Virus record (IMG/VR): IMGVR_UViG_3300008108_000044
Location: 1-64,000 of that record
Length of the DNA: 64,000 bases
Source of the DNA: a virus
Direction: 5' to 3' (one strand)
Numbering within the stretch: the stretch's first letter is position 1; every line of letters begins with the position of its first letter. The notes under the pieces are model-generated. The model saw only the letters and a list, made by a program, of their open reading frames with translations. It searched no databases and was not told the DNA's origin. Both the position numbers and the translations under genes were made by a program. Shown piece by piece: positions 4,091 to 62,122 of the stretch.

Positions 4091-5893
4091 ATGGCAGAAT
4101 GGATCGCAGCTATTGCCAGAGGGCATAACTCTGGTGTTTGTCTTTTACATAATGGAGAAATTGTTTTATCCATTGAAGAGGAAAGACTTTCTAGACATAA
4201 GTATGATGGTGGACCTCTAGCGTCCATGGTTAAGATACTTGAGTATACTAAAAAACTTGATTATCTTGTAATCGCACATACTCAACCTTTGGGGTCAGCA
4301 GGAACAATTGATTTTACTGGTGATGATATTTACACTGGTATGGCAAGAAAACTTGGGTTGATTGATAGGAATCAAGATCCATATGATCATCCTCAAGTTA
4401 TAGATTTGAGTAGAACTCACCATAAACTTCATGCTGCATGTGCCTTTTATAGGTCTGGATTTAAATCTGCAGTATCTGTTGTTGTGGATGGTGCAGGTAC
4501 ATTTATTCCAATGAATATTGGAAGATCTCAAGAGATGAGTTGGGAACTTGAATCTATATTTTCTTGTGAATATCCAGCAAATATCAAAACTTTGTACAAA
4601 CATCAAGCAGGAAAAGGACCTTGGGGATCTGCATTAATTCCTCAGGTTGATAGTTCTGGTGAAGATGAGACTGGCACTCATGAATTAATTTTGGATGAGA
4701 GTGCTGGTATTACTAAAGCATATGAAGCAGTTACTCAGTATTGTGGATGGCCTCCTATTGAAGCTGGTAAAACTATGGGATTATTCCCATATGGAAAACC
4801 AAATAAAAAAGTACCTAAAATTTATACTGATGGTGGTGGGGGATTGTGGAAAACTTCTGATAGAAATGTAATTGTTCCAACCTACCCAAATGGCGCAGTT
4901 GTTAATGAAGGTAGATATGAATTTTTGTATACGCCAGAAGATTGTAAAGACTTGACATTGCTTGAAAATCGTAGAGATATGGCATATGCAATTCAAGTAG
5001 AATCTCAACAAATGGTATTGGATTTAATTCGTAAAGCAGTTGAGATGTCTGGTAATAATAATGTAGTTCTTTCTGGTGGATATGGACTTAACTGTGTTGC
5101 AAATTATTGGTATCTTGATCAGTTAAAGGATGAGAATATTAACTTGTTTGTAGAACCAGTAAGTAATGATGCTGGTACTGCAATAGGTGCTGCTCTACTG
5201 ACTTACTATAGAATTACAAACAGTAAAAAAATTAAAAAACAAATTGATAATCTTTATACTGGACCATCTTATATGTACACTGAACAACAAATACAAGAAG
5301 TTGCTTCAAAATATAACGCAACTTCTGTTACTCAAGCTTCCTATGAAGATGTAATTGATTTGATTACGGATAAAAATATTGTTGCTTTGTTCCAAGGAAG
5401 ATCTGAAGCAGGTCCTCGTGCTCTTGGCAATCGTTCTATTCTTTATGATCCTCGTGATCCAGATGGAAAAGATCATGTAAATAGAATCAAACGTAGAGAA
5501 TATTTTAGACCTTTTGCTGGATCTATTCTTAAAGATTATGTTCATGAGTGGTTTGATCTTCGTGGAATGGATGAGACTCCATTTATGATGTATGCTGTAA
5601 ATTGTCGAGATGGTATAGAAGAAAAAATTCCAGCAATTATTCATGTTGATGGAACTTGTAGAATTCAAACGGTAACTCAAGAACAAAATAAGCATTATTA
5701 TAATCTAATTAATACTTTTTATGAGAGAACTGGTTGTCCTATAATTTTTAATACATCATTTAATCTTGGTGGGGAACCTCTTGTTGAAACTTTAGACGAT
5801 GCTTGTAGAACTCTTGCTAACAGTTTAATTGAATATCTCTATCTACCTGAATATCAAACACTAATTACTATTAAAAATGAAACCCCTTCGTAG
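4091..5893 (+). CDS. Carbamoyltransferase, NodU/CmcH (TobZ) family, full length
   Basis: This protein is 600 residues long, the usual family length. The N-terminal Kae1-like ASKHA domain shows 'ARGHNSGVCLLHNGEIV', 'EEERLSRHKY', 'HHKLHAACAFYRSGF' and 'VLSGGYGLNCVAN'. The C-terminal domain carries the invariant 'GRSEAGPRALGNRSI' and 'NRIKRREYFRPFAGSIL'. The family makes carbamoyl-adenylate from carbamoyl phosphate and ATP and carbamoylates hydroxyls of sugars or natural products. A GAGG ribosome-binding site precedes the ATG. It overlaps the halogenase gene by 17 bp, implying co-translation. The acceptor is unknown. Confidence 0.88.
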   Translation: MAEWIAAIARGHNSGVCLLHNGEIVLSIEEERLSRHKYDGGPLASMVKILEYTKKLDYLVIAHTQPLGSAGTIDFTGDDIYTGMARKLGLIDRNQDPYDHPQVIDLSRTHHKLHAACAFYRSGFKSAVSVVVDGAGTFIPMNIGRSQEMSWELESIFSCEYPANIKTLYKHQAGKGPWGSALIPQVDSSGEDETGTHELILDESAGITKAYEAVTQYCGWPPIEAGKTMGLFPYGKPNKKVPKIYTDGGGGLWKTSDRNVIVPTYPNGAVVNEGRYEFLYTPEDCKDLTLLENRRDMAYAIQVESQQMVLDLIRKAVEMSGNNNVVLSGGYGLNCVANYWYLDQLKDENINLFVEPVSNDAGTAIGAALLTYYRITNSKKIKKQIDNLYTGPSYMYTEQQIQEVASKYNATSVTQASYEDVIDLITDKNIVALFQGRSEAGPRALGNRSILYDPRDPDGKDHVNRIKRREYFRPFAGSILKDYVHEWFDLRGMDETPFMMYAVNCRDGIEEKIPAIIHVDGTCRIQTVTQEQNKHYYNLINTFYERTGCPIIFNTSFNLGGEPLVETLDDACRTLANSLIEYLYLPEYQTLITIKNETPS

Positions 5894-7397
5894 AATTGTA
5901 ATCGTTGGCGGCGGAACCTCTGGATGGTTAACCGCTGCTTTTTTACTTAAAAAAGTAAGATCTTATTGTGAGATTGTAGTTGTTGATAAGACACAATCAG
6001 AAACTGTTGGTGTTGGTGAGGCAACTGTGCTTTCATTTAAACAGTTTATGAATTTTTGTGGTTTTGATGCTGAAGAATGGGTTCCAGCTATAGATGCGAC
6101 TTTTAAAAGTGGAATCTTGTTTACTGACTGGCAAAAAGAAGGAGCAGATCTTTGGCATCCATTTGCCTATCCCGAGTTCAAACACCTCAAAACAAATCTT
6201 TTAAATCTTTGGACATTAAATAAGGATAAAGATTTTTTTACTCATGGTTGTGCATTGTACAATCCAGCGGTAACTGAAAATAAAATTGATCCAACAAACT
6301 TAGGAACATATGCCAATCATATTGACTGTGGTAGGTTGGTTCAATATATTAAAACAAAAATATCGAATAAAATAACTTTTGTAAGTCAAGAAGTTGTAGA
6401 GGTTAAAAGAAATTCTAACGGTGGAATACAGTGTATCATCTTAGAATCTGGAGAAGAAATTGAATCAGATTTATTTGTTGATTGCACTGGATGGAAAAGA
6501 CTATTGGGATCTAAACCAGATACTGTTAATTGTAGGGACAGATTGTTTTGTGATACTGCAGTTGCAGGACATGTTCCCTATGATGATATTGAACAAGAGT
6601 TAACGCCTTATACAAAATGTTGCGCTGTTGATCATGGATGGATATGGAAAATTCCAACACAATCAAGAATTGGATCTGGATTAGTATTTAATCGTGATAT
6701 AACTGATCCAGAAGAAGCAAAAGAATACTTTGTTAGACATTGGAATAATAGGATAAGTAAAAATGATTTAAAATTATTGGATTGGACTCCATATTATCAT
6801 AATAATTTTTGGGAAGATAATGTTGTTTGCATTGGATTATCCGCAGGATTTATTGAACCTTTAGAAAGCACTGGAGTTGCATTAATATGTGCTGGTATTA
6901 TTGAACTTGCAGAAGGACTTAAAGGTAATTACTACAATGTAATGGATACTCTTGTTTACAATAAAAAAATGAAAGCGTTTTTTGAAAATTGTGTTGATTA
7001 TGTAAGTATGCATTATTCACATAATCAAAGAACAACGGGTAAGTTTTGGAAGTTTGTTCAAGATACTTATAATATTACTGAGACACAAAAGTTTTTTGAA
7101 AATGAAGTTCAAAACAATCCATATGAATTACCAACAGATGGTGATTATATGTTTGTTGGAGAAAATTGGGGTGTTTTATTGTGTCAATTATTAAATAAAA
7201 ATAATATTGAACCAAAAAATAATGGAATAACTTCTGATCAAGCATTGATCTTATCTGAAGACTTCTATAAAAATGAAATTGAAAAACATAAAAAATCTAT
7301 TTTACATAAAAAATTTGTTGATGATCTTTTATCTAGAATTGATAGAGGAGAACCAGCAAATATTCCTTTTAACTCGTCTAGTCCCGTTAAGATGTGA
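5877..7397 (+). CDS. Flavin-dependent (tryptophan-type) halogenase
   Basis: This protein is 506 residues long, the normal length for the family. The FAD-binding 'VIVGGGTSGWLTA' (GxGxxG) is at the N-terminus. The halogenase diagnostic WxWxIP appears as 'WIWKIP' near residue 257. The Lys of 'ATFKSGI' near residue 78 fits the catalytic lysine that handles hypohalite. 'EPLESTG' near 328 carries the conserved Glu. The family uses FADH2, oxygen and halide to halogenate aromatic rings; a relative from cyanophage Syn10 (VirX1) is a known iodinating enzyme with broad substrates. It sits between a carbamoyltransferase and an oxygenase. No dedicated flavin reductase is seen in the window. Confidence 0.88.
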   Translation: MKPLRRIVIVGGGTSGWLTAAFLLKKVRSYCEIVVVDKTQSETVGVGEATVLSFKQFMNFCGFDAEEWVPAIDATFKSGILFTDWQKEGADLWHPFAYPEFKHLKTNLLNLWTLNKDKDFFTHGCALYNPAVTENKIDPTNLGTYANHIDCGRLVQYIKTKISNKITFVSQEVVEVKRNSNGGIQCIILESGEEIESDLFVDCTGWKRLLGSKPDTVNCRDRLFCDTAVAGHVPYDDIEQELTPYTKCCAVDHGWIWKIPTQSRIGSGLVFNRDITDPEEAKEYFVRHWNNRISKNDLKLLDWTPYYHNNFWEDNVVCIGLSAGFIEPLESTGVALICAGIIELAEGLKGNYYNVMDTLVYNKKMKAFFENCVDYVSMHYSHNQRTTGKFWKFVQDTYNITETQKFFENEVQNNPYELPTDGDYMFVGENWGVLLCQLLNKNNIEPKNNGITSDQALILSEDFYKNEIEKHKKSILHKKFVDDLLSRIDRGEPANIPFNSSSPVKM

Positions 7398-14480: not shown

Positions 14481-14489
14481 TATTTATTA
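14481..14489 (-). promoter_or_regulatory. Candidate late promoter for the bilin reductase
   Basis: On the minus strand the sequence reads TAATAAATA, about 22 bp before the bilin reductase ATG, in a 29-bp divergent gap. Its edge overlaps the ATG of the carbamoyltransferase on the other strand. Confidence 0.4.
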
Positions 14490-16108
14490 TGAAAGTTCTA
14501 ACCATCTTATCTGGGCATGATGCCTCTGCAACTATTTTAAAAGATGGTGTAGTAGAACATTATTTTAAAGAAGAAAGGTACAGCAAGATAAAACATGCGT
14601 CTGGATATAAATTTATTCTTGATATAATAATGAATGGTCTTTTAGAAGACATTGATTATATTATTTTTTCTTCTACAGATAGTCAGGAGGTAAAGGATAA
14701 AACAGATCGTTTAATACATTCTATAAATCCAAAAATAAAATTTGTCGATCCAAAATATCAACACCATTTATTTCACTCTGCTGGAGCATTTTATAGCAGT
14801 GGATTTGATAAAGCATTAGTAATCTGTATAGATTCTGCTGGTGGTTATCCAGTAGATCCAGAGGTGTTTGAATCTGAGTCTGTGTATATTGCAGAATACC
14901 CCGCAAAATTTAAACCAATATACAAAAGATATTGGACAGCAAATCTAAAAAAAAGATTTGATAAGGTTGCAAATAATTGCAGACATGTTAGTAAACATGC
15001 AATAGATGAAATTAATATTGGAAATCTTTATAACAGTGCTGCTCTTGCAATAGGACAGACAGTGGATGATTGTGGGAAGGCGATGGGTTTATCTTCTTAT
15101 GGAAATCCAATTGAACAATTAAAATTTTTTGGAGATAAAACATCTGCAGTAGATTCTATTAAAAAATATTTTAAAGAACAACAAAAGTTATTAGATTACA
15201 TGATAGATTTTGACGATAATGCAAACTATTCTATGGAAATCACAAAAGATAACTATCAATTTTTTGCCAACTATTGTTACGAAGTGCAGAGACAATGCCA
15301 AGAGCAAGTTTGTGGATTAGTAAAACAATATATTAATGAAACTGGAATAAAATCTGTTTGTATAACTGGTGGTTACGCCATGAACATTATTACAAATTAT
15401 GATCTATTAACTAAATTTCCAGATGTTGAGTTTTATTTTGATCCTATTTGTGATGATAGTGGATTGTCAATTGGATCTGCAATGTATACCTACCGCAGAT
15501 TTTCTGAAGATACACAAATACTTCCTCTTAACAACACTTTTTTTCATGGACAGCAATATAAAGTTGATCAGATACCAGATGAATATGCTGATGAAAAACG
15601 GGTTGCAAGACTGTTATATGAGAATAAATCTGTTGCAGTATACAATGGGTTAGCAGAAGCGGGTCAGAGGGCATTAGGGAACCGTTCTATACTGTTTAAT
15701 GCATTGAATCCAGATGCCAGAGAAATTGTGAATCAAATTAAAAAAAGAGAGTGGTATCGCCCATTTGCTGCTATAGTACTTGAGGAGGATGCTCACCTTT
15801 ATTTTGACAATGTGATTCCAAATCTACATATGACAGTTTGTTTTCCTGTTAAGACAAATCTTATACCTGGAGTAACTCATGTTGACAATACATGTAGAAT
15901 ACAGACAGTAAGATCTGGTCATCTTTACTCTATTTTAAATGAGTTTAAAAACTTGACAGGGCATGGTATCCTATTAAATACCAGTTTTAATTTGGCAGGA
16001 GAACCTTTAGTCGAAACCCCACAGGATGCATTTAGGACTTTAAATTCTTCTTCTCTTGATTATCTTTGGTTTTATGAAACAAAAAAGTTGTTTAAATCTA
16101 ATTTTTGA
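14489..16108 (+). CDS. Carbamoyltransferase, NodU/CmcH family (second full-length copy)
   Basis: This 539-residue protein has both domains. The N-terminal half shows 'LSGHDASATILKDGVV', 'KEERYSKIKHASG', 'HHLFHSAGAFYSSGF' and 'CITGGYAMNIITN'. The C-terminal half has 'GLAEAGQRALGNRSI' and 'NQIKKREWYRPFAAIVL', ending 'GHGILLNTSFNLAGEPLVETP'. It is clearly diverged from the 600-residue copy at 4091 and about 60 residues shorter, so it may carbamoylate a different acceptor. It is divergent from the bilin reductase and lies 1.6 kb outside the main cargo operon. Confidence 0.86.
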   Translation: MKVLTILSGHDASATILKDGVVEHYFKEERYSKIKHASGYKFILDIIMNGLLEDIDYIIFSSTDSQEVKDKTDRLIHSINPKIKFVDPKYQHHLFHSAGAFYSSGFDKALVICIDSAGGYPVDPEVFESESVYIAEYPAKFKPIYKRYWTANLKKRFDKVANNCRHVSKHAIDEINIGNLYNSAALAIGQTVDDCGKAMGLSSYGNPIEQLKFFGDKTSAVDSIKKYFKEQQKLLDYMIDFDDNANYSMEITKDNYQFFANYCYEVQRQCQEQVCGLVKQYINETGIKSVCITGGYAMNIITNYDLLTKFPDVEFYFDPICDDSGLSIGSAMYTYRRFSEDTQILPLNNTFFHGQQYKVDQIPDEYADEKRVARLLYENKSVAVYNGLAEAGQRALGNRSILFNALNPDAREIVNQIKKREWYRPFAAIVLEEDAHLYFDNVIPNLHMTVCFPVKTNLIPGVTHVDNTCRIQTVRSGHLYSILNEFKNLTGHGILLNTSFNLAGEPLVETPQDAFRTLNSSSLDYLWFYETKKLFKSNF

Positions 16109-54974: not shown

Positions 54975-54998
54975 GGGGGTTGACAAACCCCCTTTTTT
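54975..54998 (+). terminator. Rho-independent terminator
   Basis: GGGGGTT (54975-54981) pairs with AACCCCC (54986-54992), with loop GACA and TTTTTT after it. It ends the giant structural gene. Confidence 0.88.
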
Positions 54999-55010: not shown

Positions 55011-55049
55011 GACTGGAGTTTACAAGCATAGCACTTGATCAACATTTAT

Positions 55050-58000
55050 ATGGACACCCTTCGGGGTGCAACCAACAGTTTTAATGTGGGGGAGACGCAC
55101 TTCTCTTGGGAAGAACGCCACCGTGGCAGTGACTACGGAAAGGCAAAGCAAGTGCTGACTCAACTTGACTCAAACTATGATCGCTGTGCTTGGTGGACTG
55201 ATGTATCTACTCGTACAGATAAGGATCATCACCACGATTCGATTATCCATGCTTGGTTGCTGACTCTTCCTGGCATCAAAAAGATTGGTCAAGAGACTTT
55301 TGAGTTTGATCCTAATCTCTATACTCTTGAGATCATTGCTCAGATGATCTATGAGAAGTTTTTCTCTGGCAAACAAGAAGAATACGAAGATTTTCTTCCT
55401 CGCCCCTATCAAAATAAATTCCTGGATAAGATCAGTCGTGCATGGAAGCAGGCAGAATATCTTGAGTTCCTTCTCTTTGCCAAGTGCCGTGCAGGTAAGT
55501 CTGCAATGGTCCTTAAGCATATCGTAGATAGCAATTATAAACTTTCGATTGTTTGTTCTCGTCAAAAATCTCCTGAGGGATCTTGGAAGAATGATGCTAA
55601 GAGGTTTTTCCGTACTATCAAATATATTTCTGTTAAGGACCCTTCTTGGGAGGTTCAACTTGAATATTGGATGCGGCGTGATGTAAATATCGTTCTCTGG
55701 GGTACGGTTCAAAGTATCATTAAGCGTCTTAACAAGATCAGCAACGTTGATTTTGTTGCTTTTGATGAAGCACATATTGGTGGCACGGCAGATCAATTTG
55801 TACAAGTTAAGAATGCATTGAATGCTCGTACTTGCTATATCTCTGGCACTGCTCATAAACTATGCTGGATGTTCCCTGAGGAAGATCAGAAGTTTGTTTA
55901 TACTTATTTTGATGAGCAACTAGATGTTCAGCGGGGAGTTTTTGAGCGCCCTAAGATGAATGTTGCTTTCGCAAAGTATCAAACTGCAGCATATCAGGAA
56001 TTGTTTGGTGACGATCCTGATGCAATGAAAAATATCTTTACTATGAAGGGTGATAAGTTCCTTCATGAGTCTCTTGTTCGTGAGTTTATTCACAACTACT
56101 TTGGTCCTCAGCGTGAGATTCGTATCGGAGATCGTCTTCTTAAAGGAACCTATCACATGATGGCAATGCCCAGTGTGAAGGCATGTCATGCATTTCAAGA
56201 GTTGGTTAGCTGCTATTATCCTGCTCTGGTAGTTACTTCCGATACTAAGAATGATCAAGATGATATTAATCGCTTTCTGGATGAACACTCTAAAGCACTC
56301 ATCATTACTCAGTCTGCAAATGTTCTTGGTGTGACTGCTAAGAAGATTGATACTGTTATCAACTGTCGTGGTGGAGAATCCATTGAGTTTTGGACTCAGT
56401 TTGCTTTCCGTGGTGGTTCAGGTGATCATGACTGGTGGGTGATTGATTTTGATGCTCAGCGGTGTCTCCGTGCTATTCACACTGCTTTCCAACTTGCATG
56501 TGATAATAATCCATCTCTTTCCCAATATAGTGTGGTGGACTTTACCAATATTCATGAGTGGAACAATGGATTTCAAATGCTTTCCAAAGAGATGCTTGAA
56601 GATGCTCTTGCTGCTGACGTTGAAGGAAGCATCTCTACCATCACCAGTATTGTAGAATCTCTGGATCTCAGTAAGATTAGTGATTTTAATCTAAAACTCA
56701 AAACCGATCTTTCCACGGTTATGAAAGAATCGCAACTTAACGATGAAGGTGCCAATAACAAAAGTTGCATCGTTCGGGAGACTGAACGTGTAAAAAAGTC
56801 TGATGACCTTGATACTCTGAAGAAGCAGACTGTCAAGGCACTGCTTGAATCCATTCCCTTGACCATGTTTTACATTATTCGTAATGGTCAAAATGTGTAC
56901 TCAATCAATGATGTTATTGGATCTGCAGTTTATCCTTCTGTCACGGGTGATTATGAAGGCATTCTTGATGAAGTGATCTCCAAGAATCCTCATAGCATTG
57001 AACTTTTGACTCGTCGTATTGGGATTGTCTCCAACAGCATTCAAAAAAGTATCAGGGAATCTGTTTCTCACACTATCAATGAACTGTCTGTTTCATCTCA
57101 AACTCAACAATGTATTCCTGTTGAACTTTTTGATTCTATGATTGACAACTGTAGTGACCTTTCTAACGTTTATATGTTTGGTGATCCTAGTGGTTCTCAT
57201 ACTGCCCGTCTTTTGGAAAGGGACGTGAACCCGAATAACATTACTGTGTGGGAGAGTTGCGACAGTCATCGTAATCGTGTAAAATATGTAAATGATAGTG
57301 TCAACGTTGTTGGTTCTCACCCAAATATGAAGTTTACTGCTATTCTTGCCAATCCCCCATATAACGACCCAACCAAAAAAGCGAAGAACAATAAACTTTG
57401 GCCTATTGTGGTTGAACAACATCTTGAATTGATTGCTCCTGGTGGAGATTTGTGTGAAGTTACTCCCGCATCTGTTCTTGGAACCACTGGTAAGGGTAAA
57501 AAGTTTATGAAGTTGTTCTCTACAAAGTATAATCTAAAAATGATTGATTATACTGCGGATGATTATTTTACGGAAGGTGTTGCTATTTGTCGTTGGCATC
57601 TTACGAATGAACCTTATCAGGGTAAAACCACTGTCATTACTCATGATGGTTCCTTCACTTGGGATTTGCGTGATGGTCTTCCTGTTGTTGGAGATGCCGC
57701 TCTCAAGCATTCTATTCTTAATAAAATTGCCAACTCCAGTCATCCTCGTATTCCTCTGAAGATGGGTCAAGCAATTGGCAAGGAAGATCACATTCCTGAT
57801 GGTAAGTATGAGATTTACCACTCTTCTAAAAAAATTAAACGTACTAATATTGTTCCTACAACAGGAGATATGCTAAAGTTTATTGTTCCATTCTCTTCTA
57901 CTTATAAGAGTGGTGGTATCTTTACCTCTAATGGATGTGTTGGTATGTTTAATTGTTGGTGTCCCATTACTTCGGAGGAAGAAGGAGATCGTCTTAGTAA

Positions 58001-58178
58001 AATCTTTGACAATAAAATCATTCAGTTCTTTATTGATAATTATAAAAAGACTGCAGGATTTACTCCTGCCATTAAGAATGGTGAGGTTCCTGATATTACT
58101 GATTACACTAATTTGATTGAACAGTTTGGTTTTACTGAAGAAGAAGTTGAATATTTGAATCGTATCAATGTCATCTAA
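55050..58178 (+). CDS. SF2 helicase fused to adenine-DNA methyltransferase-like domain
   Basis: This protein is about 1042 residues from ATG 55050; a TTG five codons upstream is also open. The helicase half has 'LPRPYQNKFLDKISRAWK', Walker A 'AKCRAGKSAMVL' near 150, DEAH 'VAFDEAHIGG', 'YISGTAHK' and a motif VI-like 'WTQFAFRGGSGDHDW'. The C-terminal part has 'YMFGDPSGSHTARLL' (SAM-motif-like, degenerate) and 'ILANPPYNDP' (N6-adenine catalytic NPPY) near 770. This layout resembles Type ISP restriction-modification proteins but without a recognisable N-terminal nuclease. Codon choice is more GC-rich than in the flanking virion genes. Confidence 0.75.
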   Translation: MDTLRGATNSFNVGETHFSWEERHRGSDYGKAKQVLTQLDSNYDRCAWWTDVSTRTDKDHHHDSIIHAWLLTLPGIKKIGQETFEFDPNLYTLEIIAQMIYEKFFSGKQEEYEDFLPRPYQNKFLDKISRAWKQAEYLEFLLFAKCRAGKSAMVLKHIVDSNYKLSIVCSRQKSPEGSWKNDAKRFFRTIKYISVKDPSWEVQLEYWMRRDVNIVLWGTVQSIIKRLNKISNVDFVAFDEAHIGGTADQFVQVKNALNARTCYISGTAHKLCWMFPEEDQKFVYTYFDEQLDVQRGVFERPKMNVAFAKYQTAAYQELFGDDPDAMKNIFTMKGDKFLHESLVREFIHNYFGPQREIRIGDRLLKGTYHMMAMPSVKACHAFQELVSCYYPALVVTSDTKNDQDDINRFLDEHSKALIITQSANVLGVTAKKIDTVINCRGGESIEFWTQFAFRGGSGDHDWWVIDFDAQRCLRAIHTAFQLACDNNPSLSQYSVVDFTNIHEWNNGFQMLSKEMLEDALAADVEGSISTITSIVESLDLSKISDFNLKLKTDLSTVMKESQLNDEGANNKSCIVRETERVKKSDDLDTLKKQTVKALLESIPLTMFYIIRNGQNVYSINDVIGSAVYPSVTGDYEGILDEVISKNPHSIELLTRRIGIVSNSIQKSIRESVSHTINELSVSSQTQQCIPVELFDSMIDNCSDLSNVYMFGDPSGSHTARLLERDVNPNNITVWESCDSHRNRVKYVNDSVNVVGSHPNMKFTAILANPPYNDPTKKAKNNKLWPIVVEQHLELIAPGGDLCEVTPASVLGTTGKGKKFMKLFSTKYNLKMIDYTADDYFTEGVAICRWHLTNEPYQGKTTVITHDGSFTWDLRDGLPVVGDAALKHSILNKIANSSHPRIPLKMGQAIGKEDHIPDGKYEIYHSSKKIKRTNIVPTTGDMLKFIVPFSSTYKSGGIFTSNGCVGMFNCWCPITSEEEGDRLSKIFDNKIIQFFIDNYKKTAGFTPAIKNGEVPDITDYTNLIEQFGFTEEEVEYLNRINVI

Positions 58179-58584
58179 AAATAAACATAACAAGCAACAT
58201 GGATCTAAATTAGATAGATCTGATGAGAGAATTAAACAAACTCAGGAAGTTTTTACACCTCCTGAGTTGATTGATAAGATGATTTTGGATCTTCCAGAAG
58301 AAGTTCTAAAAAATCCAAATTCTAAATTTATTGATAATTGTGCTGGTGATGGTAATTTTTTAATTCAATTACTTCAGGCACTTAGAAAGTATCATAGTGA
58401 ACAGCATATTGTAGATAACATGTTGTATGCTGTAGAATTAATGGAAGACAATCATAAAGAATTGTGTAGGAGACTTGACGTTCCAACAAATCACCCCCAT
58501 TATGTGTGCTATAATGCCCTTGAGTATCACTACAGGTTTGATGGGACGCTAGGACCAACTACTTTAGACCAATTCTATAACTGA
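58168..58584 (+). CDS. Truncated N6-adenine DNA methylase-like protein
   Basis: This 138-residue protein has 'IKQTQEVFTPPELIDKMI' and the SAM-binding motif I 'FIDNCAGDGNFLIQLLQ', then 'YAVELMEDNHKELCRRL'. It stops before any (D/N)PPY catalytic motif. It overlaps the upstream fusion gene by 11 bp. As it stands it could bind SAM but not methylate alone. It may be a remnant, a regulatory partner, or complement the weak motif I of the upstream protein. Confidence 0.7.
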   Translation: MSSKNKHNKQHGSKLDRSDERIKQTQEVFTPPELIDKMILDLPEEVLKNPNSKFIDNCAGDGNFLIQLLQALRKYHSEQHIVDNMLYAVELMEDNHKELCRRLDVPTNHPHYVCYNALEYHYRFDGTLGPTTLDQFYN

Positions 58585-58591
58585 CCACTAG

Positions 58592-58606
58592 CTCCCCTCT
58601 GGGGGG
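58592..58606 (+). terminator. Possible terminator hairpin
   Basis: CTCCCC and GGGGGG form a stem with loop TCT, followed by CAAATTTT. The T-tract is weak and the -10 box of the next unit (58619) begins close behind. Confidence 0.45.
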
Positions 58607-58618
58607 CAAATTTTGCTG

Positions 58619-58624
58619 TATAAT
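58619..58624 (+). promoter_or_regulatory. Candidate -10 box for the helicase gene
   Basis: TATAAT lies 13 bp before ATG 58637. No clear -35 is seen, and the hairpin occupies the -35 region, so a regulated or weak promoter is likely. Confidence 0.4.
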
Positions 58625-58636
58625 ATTCCTATCGTT

Positions 58637-59875
58637 ATGACACCCATGCAACTTCGTCCCCACCAATCCGAAGCACTTGCCATCATGGAGCGTATCCTCA
58701 AGGGTATGATAGTGGTTCCCACTGGCGGTGGTAAGTCCCTGATTGCTATCATGGATGCTGTACGCCAATTCCTTTTTGGCAATAAGACCATTGTAGTGGT
58801 TGCTCCTCGCCTCATGCTTGCTCGTCAGTTGTCTGCCGAGTTTACTGAGCACATTACAAATGCTTCTGTGATGCATGTCCACTCTGGTAAAGATCTTCCT
58901 TACTTCACCAGTACCAAACCAAATGAGATCTTCTCCTGGTGCTATCATACTAAAGGTAACAAGTTGATCTTTACCACGTACCAATCTTTGCATCGTATTC
59001 AAGAAGCAAACATTGCTGTTGATACTATCTACTATGATGAAGCGCACAATTCTGTTAAAAAGAGTTACTTCCCTTCCGTCAAGCATTTCTCTGCTGTTGC
59101 TGACCGCAGTTATTTCTTCACTGCTACTCCTAAGTATTCTTCCACTCCTGCCAAACCTGGGATGAACGATACTAGTGTGTATGGTGGCATTATCTACAAT
59201 GTCCCTGCTCCACGCCTTGTCAAGAATGGTTCTATCCTTCCTCCTAAGATCAATGCCATCAATGTTGGTGGCATTCGTCTGAAGGGCGAGGAGGCAGCAG
59301 AGAGGGATTGCATGACCCTTCTGGACACTCTGTACAACGAAGATTGTATGGAGAAGGTGCTGATTGCTGCTCCTAACACAAAGGTCATGATTCGTATGCT
59401 TGCGGAGACTGACTTTATGAAGGAAGTTCAGTCAATGGGTTACGATCTTCTTTGGATCACTAGCAAGCATGGTGCATTCCTTAATGACAAGAAGATCACT
59501 CGTGAGCACTTCTTTAACCTTGTCCGCGAGTTTGGTGCTGATCCTGATAAGAAGTTTATTGTTCTTCACTACTCTATTCTCAGCGAAGGTATCTCTGTCC
59601 CTGGTCTTACTTCTCTGGTTCTTATGCGTCAGATGAACGTGATTGAGATGTGTCAGTCTGTTGGTCGTGTTATTCGTCTCCATCTTGACGATGTGAAGCG
59701 TATTCAGGATGGTACTCTGACTCCTGGTAACCTACAGGATTACACCAAATCGTTTGGTTTGGTCCATGTTCCTGTGTACAGCAACGTTGGTATTGCCACT
59801 GTTAAACGCCTACAAAACGTGGTTGACACTGTGTTTGTTGAAGGTCAACCTGCAATCTCTACTATTAAGAGGTAA
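58637..59875 (+). CDS. UvsW-like SF2 DNA helicase
   Basis: This protein is about 412 residues from ATG 58637; an in-frame TTG upstream lies within the promoter and is rejected. Visible motifs are 'QLRPHQSEALAIMER', Walker A 'VVPTGGGKSLIAI', 'TYQSLHRI', DEAH 'IYYDEAHNSV', 'YFFTATPKY', 'LSEGISVPGLTSLVL' and motif VI 'QSVGRVIRLH'. It fits phage UvsW/type III Res-like helicases that unwind branched DNA. It is shorter than typical UvsW (about 480-500), so it may be a paralog linked to the methylase pair. Confidence 0.8.
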   Translation: MTPMQLRPHQSEALAIMERILKGMIVVPTGGGKSLIAIMDAVRQFLFGNKTIVVVAPRLMLARQLSAEFTEHITNASVMHVHSGKDLPYFTSTKPNEIFSWCYHTKGNKLIFTTYQSLHRIQEANIAVDTIYYDEAHNSVKKSYFPSVKHFSAVADRSYFFTATPKYSSTPAKPGMNDTSVYGGIIYNVPAPRLVKNGSILPPKINAINVGGIRLKGEEAAERDCMTLLDTLYNEDCMEKVLIAAPNTKVMIRMLAETDFMKEVQSMGYDLLWITSKHGAFLNDKKITREHFFNLVREFGADPDKKFIVLHYSILSEGISVPGLTSLVLMRQMNVIEMCQSVGRVIRLHLDDVKRIQDGTLTPGNLQDYTKSFGLVHVPVYSNVGIATVKRLQNVVDTVFVEGQPAISTIKR

Positions 59876-60463: not shown

Positions 60464-60626
60464 ACTTAAGCACCAACGTCTTCAGGCATGGTTGCGTGAA
60501 CATGAGTGTGATGATATTGAATATCTTGGTGAGAAAGGTGGTGAATACTGGTATCGTATTGGACCACATGAAATTACATCCGACCAATTTGAAGACATTG
60601 AATTCGTCGGTATGGTAGATGATTAA
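60444..60626 (+). CDS. Small hypothetical protein
   Basis: This 60-residue protein starts at ATG 60444, which has GGGAGG upstream; the longer open frame is ignored. It contains 'SQSELKHQRLQAWLREHECD' and an acidic beta segment. It overlaps genes on both sides. Function unknown. Confidence 0.58.
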   Translation: MKISQSELKHQRLQAWLREHECDDIEYLGEKGGEYWYRIGPHEITSDQFEDIEFVGMVDD

Positions 60627-61104
60627 ACAATTTTTTGTAGAGGATGAAGTAAGCGATTACTTTAATCTTCTACTTCTTTTTGTTTCTGATAACGCCGATG
60701 TCTATAAAGACTCTAAAAATAGTTCTTTAAGTAGTAATTGTTTTTCTACATTAAATCTTTTAGATAAAGTACCATCGGAAAAATTTTATAACTATATTGG
60801 TATTCTTTTATCTTTATGTCAACGCGAGTTGAATTTAAACTTGGAATATTTTTATATTCATATGGTAAACTATGAGAATGGTGGTGACATGAAAATTCAC
60901 CAACATATTCACAATGAGGATTATAGTTTCATATTATATTTAAATTCCTGCACAGACGGAAATACCATTCTTCACTTGGATAATAAAACACATAAAGTAA
61001 TTCCTGTTAAAAATAAGGTTTTACTATTCCCATCAAATATTCCTCACTCTGCAGAATATTCAAACTCTAAAAAAGTTTTGGTTGGTGGATTAAAATTAAA
61101 ATAA
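60619..61104 (+). CDS. Putative 2OG-Fe(II) oxygenase, HxH type
   Basis: This 161-residue protein has 'YENGGDMKIHQHIHNEDYSF' near 92 (H-x-H), 'ILYLNSCTDGNTILHLD', 'KVLLFPSNIPHSAEYS' (distal His) and 'KKVLVGGLKLK' (Lys in the 2-oxoglutarate position). It matches the small phage oxygenase type, with its ligand set partly non-canonical. It ends the small-ORF operon and precedes a radical SAM pair. Confidence 0.58.
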   Translation: MIKQFFVEDEVSDYFNLLLLFVSDNADVYKDSKNSSLSSNCFSTLNLLDKVPSEKFYNYIGILLSLCQRELNLNLEYFYIHMVNYENGGDMKIHQHIHNEDYSFILYLNSCTDGNTILHLDNKTHKVIPVKNKVLLFPSNIPHSAEYSNSKKVLVGGLKLK

Positions 61105-61303: not shown

Positions 61304-62122
61304 ATGCTAAAAGTACCTCATGAAATACAACTACATGTAACACACTCTTGCAATTTAACTTGCGAGGGATGCACTCATTATATGAACCAAGGACACTCTG
61401 GTTCTGTAACTTTAGAAGAAGCTGCAAAATGGATGGATAACTGGAATACAAAAGTCCTTCCAATGAGGTTTACTCTGATGGGTGGTGAACCAGCACTACA
61501 CCCAGATCTGGTGGAGTTTGTTTATTTGGCAAGGAAGAAATGGCCAAATTCGTATCTTGATTTGATATCGAATGGTTTTTATTTGTATAAACACCCAGAT
61601 CTTTGGAAGGCATTAAAAGAAACTAAGACAACCTTAGGAGTCTCTGTACATTCGGATGGAGATCCTGAGTATAGAAAAAAGTTTGAACCAGTCTACCAGT
61701 TAATGAAGGAGTGGATTGCAAAAGGTGCTCCAGTTGAGATGAGACCCTCAATTATTCACTGGATCAGGCAATACAAAGGATTTGGGGATAAAATGGAACC
61801 GTATGAGGACAATGATCCAAAAAAAAGTTGGAAATATTGTGTCTCAAAATTGTGTGTGCAATTACATGAAAACAAGTTGTGGAAGTGTCCAGCGTTAGCA
61901 TATTTGCCGATGCAAGCAGAAAAATATAATCTTTCTGAAAAATGGGATCCATATCTTAAATATGTTCCGTTAAATAGTGATTGTACAAAAGAGGAATTGA
62001 AGGACTTTTTTACTCGTAAAGAAGAGTCTTTTTGTTCTATGTGCCCTGCAAAAGAAGAATTCTTTACTCCACAAAATCCATTATTACCAGTAAGTTATTG
62101 GAAAAAGTTATATGACACTTGA
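61304..62122 (+). CDS. Radical SAM enzyme with C-terminal cysteine cluster
   Basis: This 272-residue protein has the CxxxCxxC motif 'CNLTCEGC' (residues about 16-23) for the SAM-bound 4Fe-4S cluster, 'LMGGEPALHPDL' (GGE motif) and 'VSVHSDGDPE'. The C-terminal cysteines 'YCVSKLC', 'KCPAL' and 'CSMCPA' resemble a SPASM/Twitch auxiliary cluster site. Such enzymes catalyse radical modification of peptides, sugars or cofactors. The substrate is unknown. It overlaps an oxygenase-like gene by 11 bp, suggesting joint action. Confidence 0.78.
   Translation: MLKVPHEIQLHVTHSCNLTCEGCTHYMNQGHSGSVTLEEAAKWMDNWNTKVLPMRFTLMGGEPALHPDLVEFVYLARKKWPNSYLDLISNGFYLYKHPDLWKALKETKTTLGVSVHSDGDPEYRKKFEPVYQLMKEWIAKGAPVEMRPSIIHWIRQYKGFGDKMEPYEDNDPKKSWKYCVSKLCVQLHENKLWKCPALAYLPMQAEKYNLSEKWDPYLKYVPLNSDCTKEELKDFFTRKEESFCSMCPAKEEFFTPQNPLLPVSYWKKLYDT

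Follow-up and report, generated by a model that had tools for sequence, protein, structure and literature searches.

Overlapping phage genes that probably encode the two subunits of one DNA methyltransferase

Does a helicase–methyltransferase fusion of a marine phage share one enzyme with the short gene that overlaps its end? The DNA analyzed here, hereafter the window, comprises positions 1 to 64,000 of the 79,508-base IMG/VR virus record IMGVR_UViG_3300008108_000044, and contains the fusion (gene 1), the short gene (gene 2), and a helicase gene (gene 3) in a row; the closest annotated relatives of gene 1 all belong to Synechococcus phages. An earlier note on this DNA had described a fusion with a good NPPY motif and a weak S-adenosylmethionine (SAM) motif, followed by an overlapping gene with a perfect SAM motif and no NPPY, and had proposed that together they hold one full methylase motif set. 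Both motifs of the fusion were located in gene 1 (NPPY at residues 768-771 and the SAM-like motif GDPSGSHTARLLER at residues 711-724), and the short gene was found as gene 2, which carries EVFTPPELIDKM (motif X), FIDNCAGDGNFL (motif I), and LYAVEL (motif II), without NPPY. As described below, genes 1 and 2 are probably the two subunits of one DNA methyltransferase (MTase), since their relatives show a constant pairing, partners that start at motif IV, and a natural single-chain form. The features concerned are as follows.

55035..58178, plus strand: gene 1, 1047 amino acids from TTG 55035 or 1042 from ATG 55050, in the order N-terminal domain, superfamily 2 (SF2) helicase, degenerate SAM-like lobe, NPPY catalytic half, C-terminal (target recognition) region
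57090..57323, plus strand: SAM-like lobe of gene 1, with IPVELFDSM (57114-57140) resembling motif X, a degenerate motif I, GDPSGSHT (from 57180), and ITVWESCD (57240-57263) resembling motif II
57324..58175, plus strand: catalytic half of gene 1, with motif IV NPPY (57351-57362), to the C-terminus
58168..58584, plus strand: gene 2, the putative SAM subunit, 138 amino acids, with motifs X, I, and II, stopping just before motif IV
58168..58178, plus strand: overlap of the gene 1 stop with the gene 2 start, 11 nucleotides, a candidate for translational coupling

The residues NIY just 5' of ATG 55050 are conserved among the gene 1 relatives, so TTG 55035 is the likelier start. Gene 1 matches phrog_22930 (E 4.5e-212), phrog_3689 (E 2.2e-31), and Pfam Eco57I (E 1.8e-6), while the PADLOC models gave no match for it. 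Gene 2 matches phrog_4376 (E 1.2e-60) and, in PADLOC, generic MTase models, and its motif I glycines are invariant in 11 aligned gene-2 proteins.

Pairing of gene 2 with motif IV halves

We scanned viral contigs with the alignment of the 11 gene-2 proteins, which gave 372 relatives, and examined the best 80, which form 36 clusters at 90% identity. The relatives are annotated as "unknown function" (phrog_4376) or hypothetical. The earlier note had considered that the short gene might be a recent truncation absent in relatives; this was rejected, as there are hundreds of relatives and the 80 examined are of about equal length.

A catalytic-half gene lies directly upstream of gene 2 in 72 of the 80 loci and one gene away in six, while in the other two loci (L033 and L077) the contig ends with no partner visible. 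A motif IV sequence was present in the directly upstream open reading frame (ORF) at 67 of the 80 loci, and BLAST recognized five further upstream catalytic halves, one with NAPY (L024) and four cut by contig edges (L074, L075, L078, and L084). Where the partner stands one gene off, the intervening gene is a helicase (L046 and L068) or another short gene (L079, L081, L082, and L090); by eye, two of the latter resemble 2-oxoglutarate (2OG)-Fe oxygenases (L079:2024-2617 and L090:1899-2438). With a stricter motif IV pattern, 61 of 79 upstream neighbours of gene-2 relatives matched, whereas among the 702 other ORFs of these loci six did, and chance is thus excluded as the cause of the pairing. The overlap offset of genes 1 and 2 recurs in 36 of the 79 neighbours, and the open frames and the overlap are preserved across relatives.

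The reverse scan, with 12 P-SSM2-type catalytic halves as the query, gave 140 relatives, of which 80 were kept; since the two scans share contigs, they are not independent. Gene 2 follows directly after the catalytic half in 79 of the 80 loci, and the 80th lies at a contig edge. All 80 catalytic ORFs begin 8-15 residues before NPPY and have no SAM lobe, and these partners, starting at motif IV, would be unable to bind SAM alone. The catalytic half of gene 1 itself shares 57-59% identity with stand-alone genes beginning at motif IV, for example in L038, L040, and L044, which are the nearest non-fused relatives of the gene 1 C-terminus and start with MNFT-ILSNPPY. Gene 2 also adjoins all eight full-fusion relatives (L092-L099), although in L092 it is cut by the contig end.

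The annotated phage records agree: gene 2 is present in all 35 that have a gene-1-type match, and in Synechococcus phage ACG-2014f, all 26 records with gene 2 have a gene-1-type catalytic match (compared by eye). The gene order varies. In the ACG-2014f isolate Syn7803C25, gene 2 lies at 35.9 kb and the catalytic half, which begins with MKFDVVIGNPPYQ, at 137.2 kb, so that the halves are about 100 kb apart in this one isolate for which the layout was read; isolate Syn7803C16 has the order gene 2, helicase, catalytic half, and in S-CAM7 isolate 0910CC49 the helicase and the catalytic half each have a gene of their own, followed by gene 2. The constant pairing and the complementary motifs strongly support, across relatives, the proposal that one methylase motif set is divided over two proteins. 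Gene 2 could instead be a SAM-binding decoy or an anti-restriction factor with no catalytic role, as might be read from its short length and its SAM motifs without a catalytic motif; however, its constant pairing with catalytic halves that have no SAM motifs, and its natural fusion to one of them, make this very improbable.

The two halves in one chain and in bacteria

The natural fusion is found in Aeromonas phage phiAS5, whose ORF0215 starts with MSILFDYMIANPPYS, has motifs X and I at its end, and thereby holds both halves in one permuted chain. The single-chain form occurs in three more viral loci; a fourth, L107, has the two-gene form, and L104 and L107 belong to one phage record. A model of the single chain, built from 22 sequences, aligned over residues 1-371 with the beta-class enzyme M.MboIIA (Z 10.4, root-mean-square deviation (rmsd) 2.6, 136 aligned) and also with M1.HpyAVI (Z 10.0, rmsd 3.1, 141 aligned), both matches spanning the two ends of the model. 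Since the model matches these MTases at both ends, the two halves can form one MTase fold in the beta-class order. This order (IV-VIII, target recognition domain (TRD), X-I) is found across the gene pair as well as in the single chain, but we do not file the pair under the beta class, because the sequences are gamma-like (N6_Mtase and Eco57I matches). Given that motif IV is NPPY, the target would probably be N6-adenine.

The pairing is also found in bacteria. The scan of cellular genome contigs yielded three loci, of which one is a phage contig and one shows no partner on the strand and within the stretch that were read. In Curtobacterium ammoniigenes, a half that starts at motif IV overlaps the SAM half, and in the Microbacteriaceae genome G458, a gene for a 380-amino-acid protein, the catalytic half, and the SAM half are consecutive and overlapping. 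The three G458 proteins are 32%, 56%, and 50% identical to their Curtobacterium counterparts, the first of which is encoded on the opposite strand. Among 398 Microbacteriaceae genomes, 42 gave a match, two at E < 1e-40, for which alone the gene neighbourhoods were read, and the rest at E 3e-10 or weaker. The 380-amino-acid protein had no Pfam match; its position and a D...SxK-like stretch point to a probable endonuclease. PDLC03273, the PADLOC model of an ordinary unsplit Type II MTase (432 positions), aligns with gene 2 at positions 38-86 (E 4.1e-4) and with the bacterial catalytic half at positions 131-408 (E 1.6e-14), and thus shows to which two pieces of a normal enzyme they correspond.

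A polymerase-like tail on gene 2

The end of gene 2 provided a further clue.

58558..58584, plus strand: C-terminal tail of gene 2, TTLDQFYN and stop, a candidate sliding-clamp-binding tail, judged from the counts and polymerase tails given here and from the part of PMC2988020 available to us

Of the 79 gene-2 relatives, 73 end in a like motif, as do 9 of the 750 other ORFs; a stricter pattern stands at the end of 32 of the 36 cluster representatives. Across the annotated-phage stretches and the window, the tail pattern was found in 18 of 266 ORFs, which we read as nine gene-2 proteins (one an extended frame), three DNA polymerases, one Dam-like methylase, and five others. The DNA polymerases of three such phages end in NLDSFFS, NLELFFS, and TLEDFFS, and gene 2 has the hydrophobic and acidic C-terminus of the T4-type clamp tail, as in gp43. 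This likeness to the polymerase of the phage suggests that gene 2 may dock on the sliding clamp gp45; a polymerase-like tail on a SAM subunit appears to be new, as far as we are aware. A separate Dam-like methylase in ACG-2014f (L228:3464-4345) shares the clamp-like tail of gene 2 and the polymerase, its C-terminus being TTLDSFFN, and the tail may therefore be a shared recruitment route for phage DNA-modifying enzymes.

The SAM-like lobe retained in gene 1

We then considered whether gene 1, with a divergent SAM site of its own, could be self-sufficient, and gene 2 an accessory that offers a second SAM site, a clamp tether, or a regulator. Residues 683-880 of gene 1, of which the lobe is the first half, were modelled as a complete gamma-class MTase domain, similar to CamA (Z 17.8, rmsd 2.8, 192 aligned) and M.TaqI 2adm (Z 17.1); the mean predicted local distance difference test score (pLDDT) was 59.6 over the whole model and about 80-90 over most of the lobe. 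The motif GDPxGxH is conserved even across distant partner lobes. However, the GxG of motif I is absent in 18 of 19 aligned partner lobes (the 18 are not independent), gene 1 reading DPSGSHT, while gene 2 has all of the SAM motifs. The lobe itself is lacking in all 80 P-SSM2-type halves and in L038, L040, and L044, where gene 2 is kept. The earlier note had taken a complete SAM site in the fusion alone as evidence against a divided enzyme; the modelled fold and the purifying selection on the lobe go some way in that direction, but the motif I glycines are missing. Motifs X, I, and IV and the TRD in one chain with an intact motif I, as in the gamma class, are accordingly not what is found, since the GxG motif I lies on gene 2. 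On this evidence, a self-sufficient gene 1 is unlikely, and the lobe is optional among the relatives of one catalytic family, whereas gene 2 is retained. Because the lobe is optional or degenerate while gene 2 stays, we consider it more likely that gene 2 supplies the SAM and that the lobe serves as a scaffold.

The ratios of nonsynonymous to synonymous substitution rates (dN/dS) were low throughout: 0.08-0.17 for the lobe in the three pairs with a defined value (two further lobe values were undefined by saturation), 0.02-0.06 for the catalytic half except for 0.21 with L012, and 0.02-0.27 across all regions that have a value. We therefore rejected a decaying block. The loss of motif I in gene 1 and NAPY in one relative would suit a decaying remnant of a restriction-modification system, but the low dN/dS, together with the open frames and overlap kept in relatives, largely refutes it and leaves it barely credible. 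A descent of the gene 1 lobe from gene 2 was rejected as well, since the profile comparison aligned just 21 columns, with a probability of 5%.

Several observations weigh against the two-subunit reading. The gene 1 lobe models within a complete gamma-class fold, as described above, and is conserved and constrained without decay, which argues for some remaining function. An intact motif I (DPAMGGGQY) is present in the lobe of S-CAM7 CC030809_00055, yet gene 2 adjoins; among the 19 lobe sequences, this lobe is the only one that matches the gene-2 profile (E 1.4e-4). The close relative L024 (identical to L099) has NAPY instead of NPPY. The strict clamp-like tail is missing from the P-SSM2 gene 2 and from 4 of the 36 cluster representatives. 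The single-chain model has a poor mean pLDDT of 55.4, although values reach about 80-97 over most of its SAM half, and a Foldseek search with it returned no match at E <= 0.001. Since gene 1 keeps a folded lobe of its own, gene 2 would have to replace this lobe or sit beside it. The retention of a folded but degenerate SAM lobe in gene 1 of the fusion clade appears to be new, so far as we know.

The two-subunit MTase nevertheless explains the data best. The halves, their complementarity, the constant co-occurrence, the natural single-chain fusion, and the purifying selection are all read from the sequences; we infer a physical complex, DNA methylation, SAM binding in trans for the fusion, and the docking on the clamp, as well as the biological role. 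In the proposed mechanism, gene 2 would supply the SAM-binding lobe (motifs X and I-III), and the C-terminal half of gene 1 would supply the motif IV catalytic half and target recognition, with the gene order permuted relative to an ordinary gamma-class enzyme. In the fusion clade, the catalytic half follows an SF2 helicase and a domain that is possibly GIY-YIG-like, an assembly that may act as a Type ISP-like or IIG-like translocating machine for modification, perhaps also for restriction. The enzyme is probably anchored to the sliding clamp of the phage by the gene 2 tail, and freshly copied phage DNA would thereby be marked.

Helicase and possible nuclease modules of the fusion

Two domains lie ahead of the lobe in gene 1.

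55035..55373, plus strand: N-terminal domain of gene 1, possibly of the T5orf172-type GIY-YIG-like kind, with the pattern G.T, R, D...H, E.F
55374..56549, plus strand: SF2 helicase domain of gene 1, with Walker A AKCRAGKS (55479-55502) and DEAH (55764-55775)

The helicase domain matches phrog_16 (E 1.4e-17) and, below the cut-off, Pfam ResIII (E 0.05). In the N-terminal domain, invariant residues in 11 relatives (G, R, D, H, E, and F) fit the pattern of T5orf172, with D replacing its metal-binding E. An hhalign comparison with T5orf172 scored 26.0, against a maximum of 19.2 in 100 column shuffles, but at a probability of just 28%, and Pfam GIY-YIG appeared in one of the 11 N-terminal segments (E 0.084). 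A Pfam search for Mrr-family nucleases found no match in the gene 1 protein nor in any of the 11 N-terminal segments, and a sequence search of solved structures with the N-terminal domain profiles returned nothing convincing.

Other partners carry clearer modules, such as a LEM-3 GIY-YIG domain in Klebsiella phage PKO111 gp114 (E 2.7e-15) and T5orf172, above the cut-off, in an Aeromonas phage partner. In L068, a gene with a weak Pfam Mrr_cat match (E 0.054, below the cut-off) is followed by the catalytic half, the helicase, and gene 2. Bellamy gp87 and a gene of Lak megaphage B2 resemble PD-(D/E)XK nucleases by eye, while Pfam gave no match for either. At the Lak phage locus (L101:1318-4414), the nuclease-looking gene is accompanied by a gene with NPPY and by a frame that resembles gene 2 but requires TAG to be read as Q to stay open.

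These modules would suit a restriction machine of the fusion clade directed at host or rival DNA, with the methylase protecting the phage, a role that is compatible with the two-subunit MTase. The Type ISP-like domain order (Z 15.1, but with an rmsd of 18.8 over 503 aligned residues), the Mrr-like candidate beside the L068 pair, the nuclease domains of the PKO111 and Aeromonas phage partners, and the bacterial three-gene set with its probable endonuclease all point that way. Nevertheless, the GIY-YIG assignment of gene 1 is weak, the expected metal-binding E being D, and the P-SSM2 pair has no directly adjoining helicase or nuclease gene, its helicase lying two genes downstream. We thus regard a restriction role as possible but doubtful. 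The earlier note had likened the block to Type ISP systems without a visible nuclease; the likeness holds only for the domain order, and the absence of a nuclease may be wrong, in view of the weak resemblance to T5orf172 GIY-YIG. For anti-restriction, which the note named as a possible role, nothing specific emerged in support.

Gene 3 and the surroundings of the block

The UvsW-like helicase described earlier as following the two genes was indeed found, as gene 3.

58637..59875 (or from TTG 58613), plus strand: gene 3, UvsW-like SF2 helicase (phrog_16, E 1.3e-61; T4 UvsW 2oca, E 2.1e-4)
54975..54992, plus strand: terminator-like hairpin before the block
58591..58607, plus strand: terminator-like hairpin between gene 2 and gene 3

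UvsW-like genes also occur near the pair in P-SSM2, L090, and L108. We rejected gene 3 as a methylase subunit, because a terminator-like hairpin stands between, its GC content at third codon positions (GC3) differs, and the 79.5 kb record has no other gene that is clearly UvsW-like; gene 3 is probably a separate core phage gene. The earlier suggestion of more GC-rich codons was borne out, with GC3 values of 0.335, 0.252, and 0.453 for genes 1-3 against 0.14-0.21 in ten large upstream genes compared; the one downstream gene compared had 0.311. On the other hand, the suggestion of an own promoter proved weak, with 19 promoter-like sites against 14.3 +/- 3.9 in shuffles, although the terminator-like hairpins do flank the pair.

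Elsewhere in the window, positions 5877-7397 and 14489-16108 encode tryptophan halogenase-like and Nol-like carbamoyltransferase genes, which resemble a cyanophage cluster for secondary metabolites or capsule that is described in the part of PMC7824862 available to us. A radical SAM protein (phrog_1802, E 5e-11) is encoded at 61304-62122, in the same accessory stretch. The best phrog match of the gene at 60619-61104 bears the name DNA endonuclease V, but two families of 2OG-Fe(II) oxygenases match too, and the name looks doubtful.

Discussion

The analysis assigns a function to a small gene of many marine and other T4-like phages; a single scan gave 372 viral relatives of it. The enzyme is predicted to be divided between the SAM lobe and the catalytic half, and the methylation of phage DNA to be coupled to the replication clamp. 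We tentatively suggest that T4-like phages hold a widespread two-gene MTase, in which a clamp-riding SAM subunit may serve exchangeable catalytic and recognition halves, whether these stand alone or are joined to GIY-YIG or helicase modules, and that the loci may preserve several steps of a circular permutation. With the same reserve, these steps might be a full-length first copy with an intact lobe beside a truncated second copy, a degenerate lobe, a lost lobe, and a re-fused permuted chain, a series that would fit permutation by duplication. How permuted DNA methyltransferases originated is an old question, for which the loci would then offer snapshots from nature.

In the open-access literature, we found no phage adenine MTase split into a SAM lobe and a catalytic half; subscription papers and REBASE were outside the scope, and the novelty is therefore uncertain. 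The pair shares motifs X, I, II, and IV and the MTase fold with the gamma-class N6-adenine MTases (CamA and M.TaqI; Eco57I / N6_Mtase), but here the SAM lobe is a separate chain encoded downstream, and the motif order is swapped. The beta-class enzymes M.MboIIA, M1.HpyAVI, and M.RsrI likewise have the catalytic half first and the SAM half last, and they resemble the single-chain relative (Z 9.5-10.4), whereas the motifs here are of the gamma type by sequence and the window encodes two proteins. METTL3-METTL14 and MTA1c are paired MTase-fold chains in which one has a degenerate SAM site; by contrast, the SAM donor here is only a half-fold.

Circularly permuted, M.EcoKI-like DNA adenine methylases of jumbo phages have already been published (Iyer et al. 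2021, PMC7824862), and may well cover the single-chain form, being permuted adenine MTases too; the available part of that paper mentions no two-gene split, helicase fusion, or clamp-like tail. The Type ISP enzymes LlaGI and LlaBIII, as described in the available part of PMC4666363, likewise combine helicase, MTase, and recognition region in one chain, but here no Mrr nuclease was found in the chain and the intact SAM motifs are on a second protein. As the N-terminal Mrr nuclease was looked for and not found, genes 1 and 2 are not a Type ISP system. "Split DNA methyltransferases" are also mentioned in the portion of PMC4335053 at hand. In natural split C5-methyltransferases, according to the accessible text of PMC5944983, the cut falls between motif VIII and the TRD; two chains make up one MTase there as here, whereas the cut in the phage pair lies between motifs III and IV.

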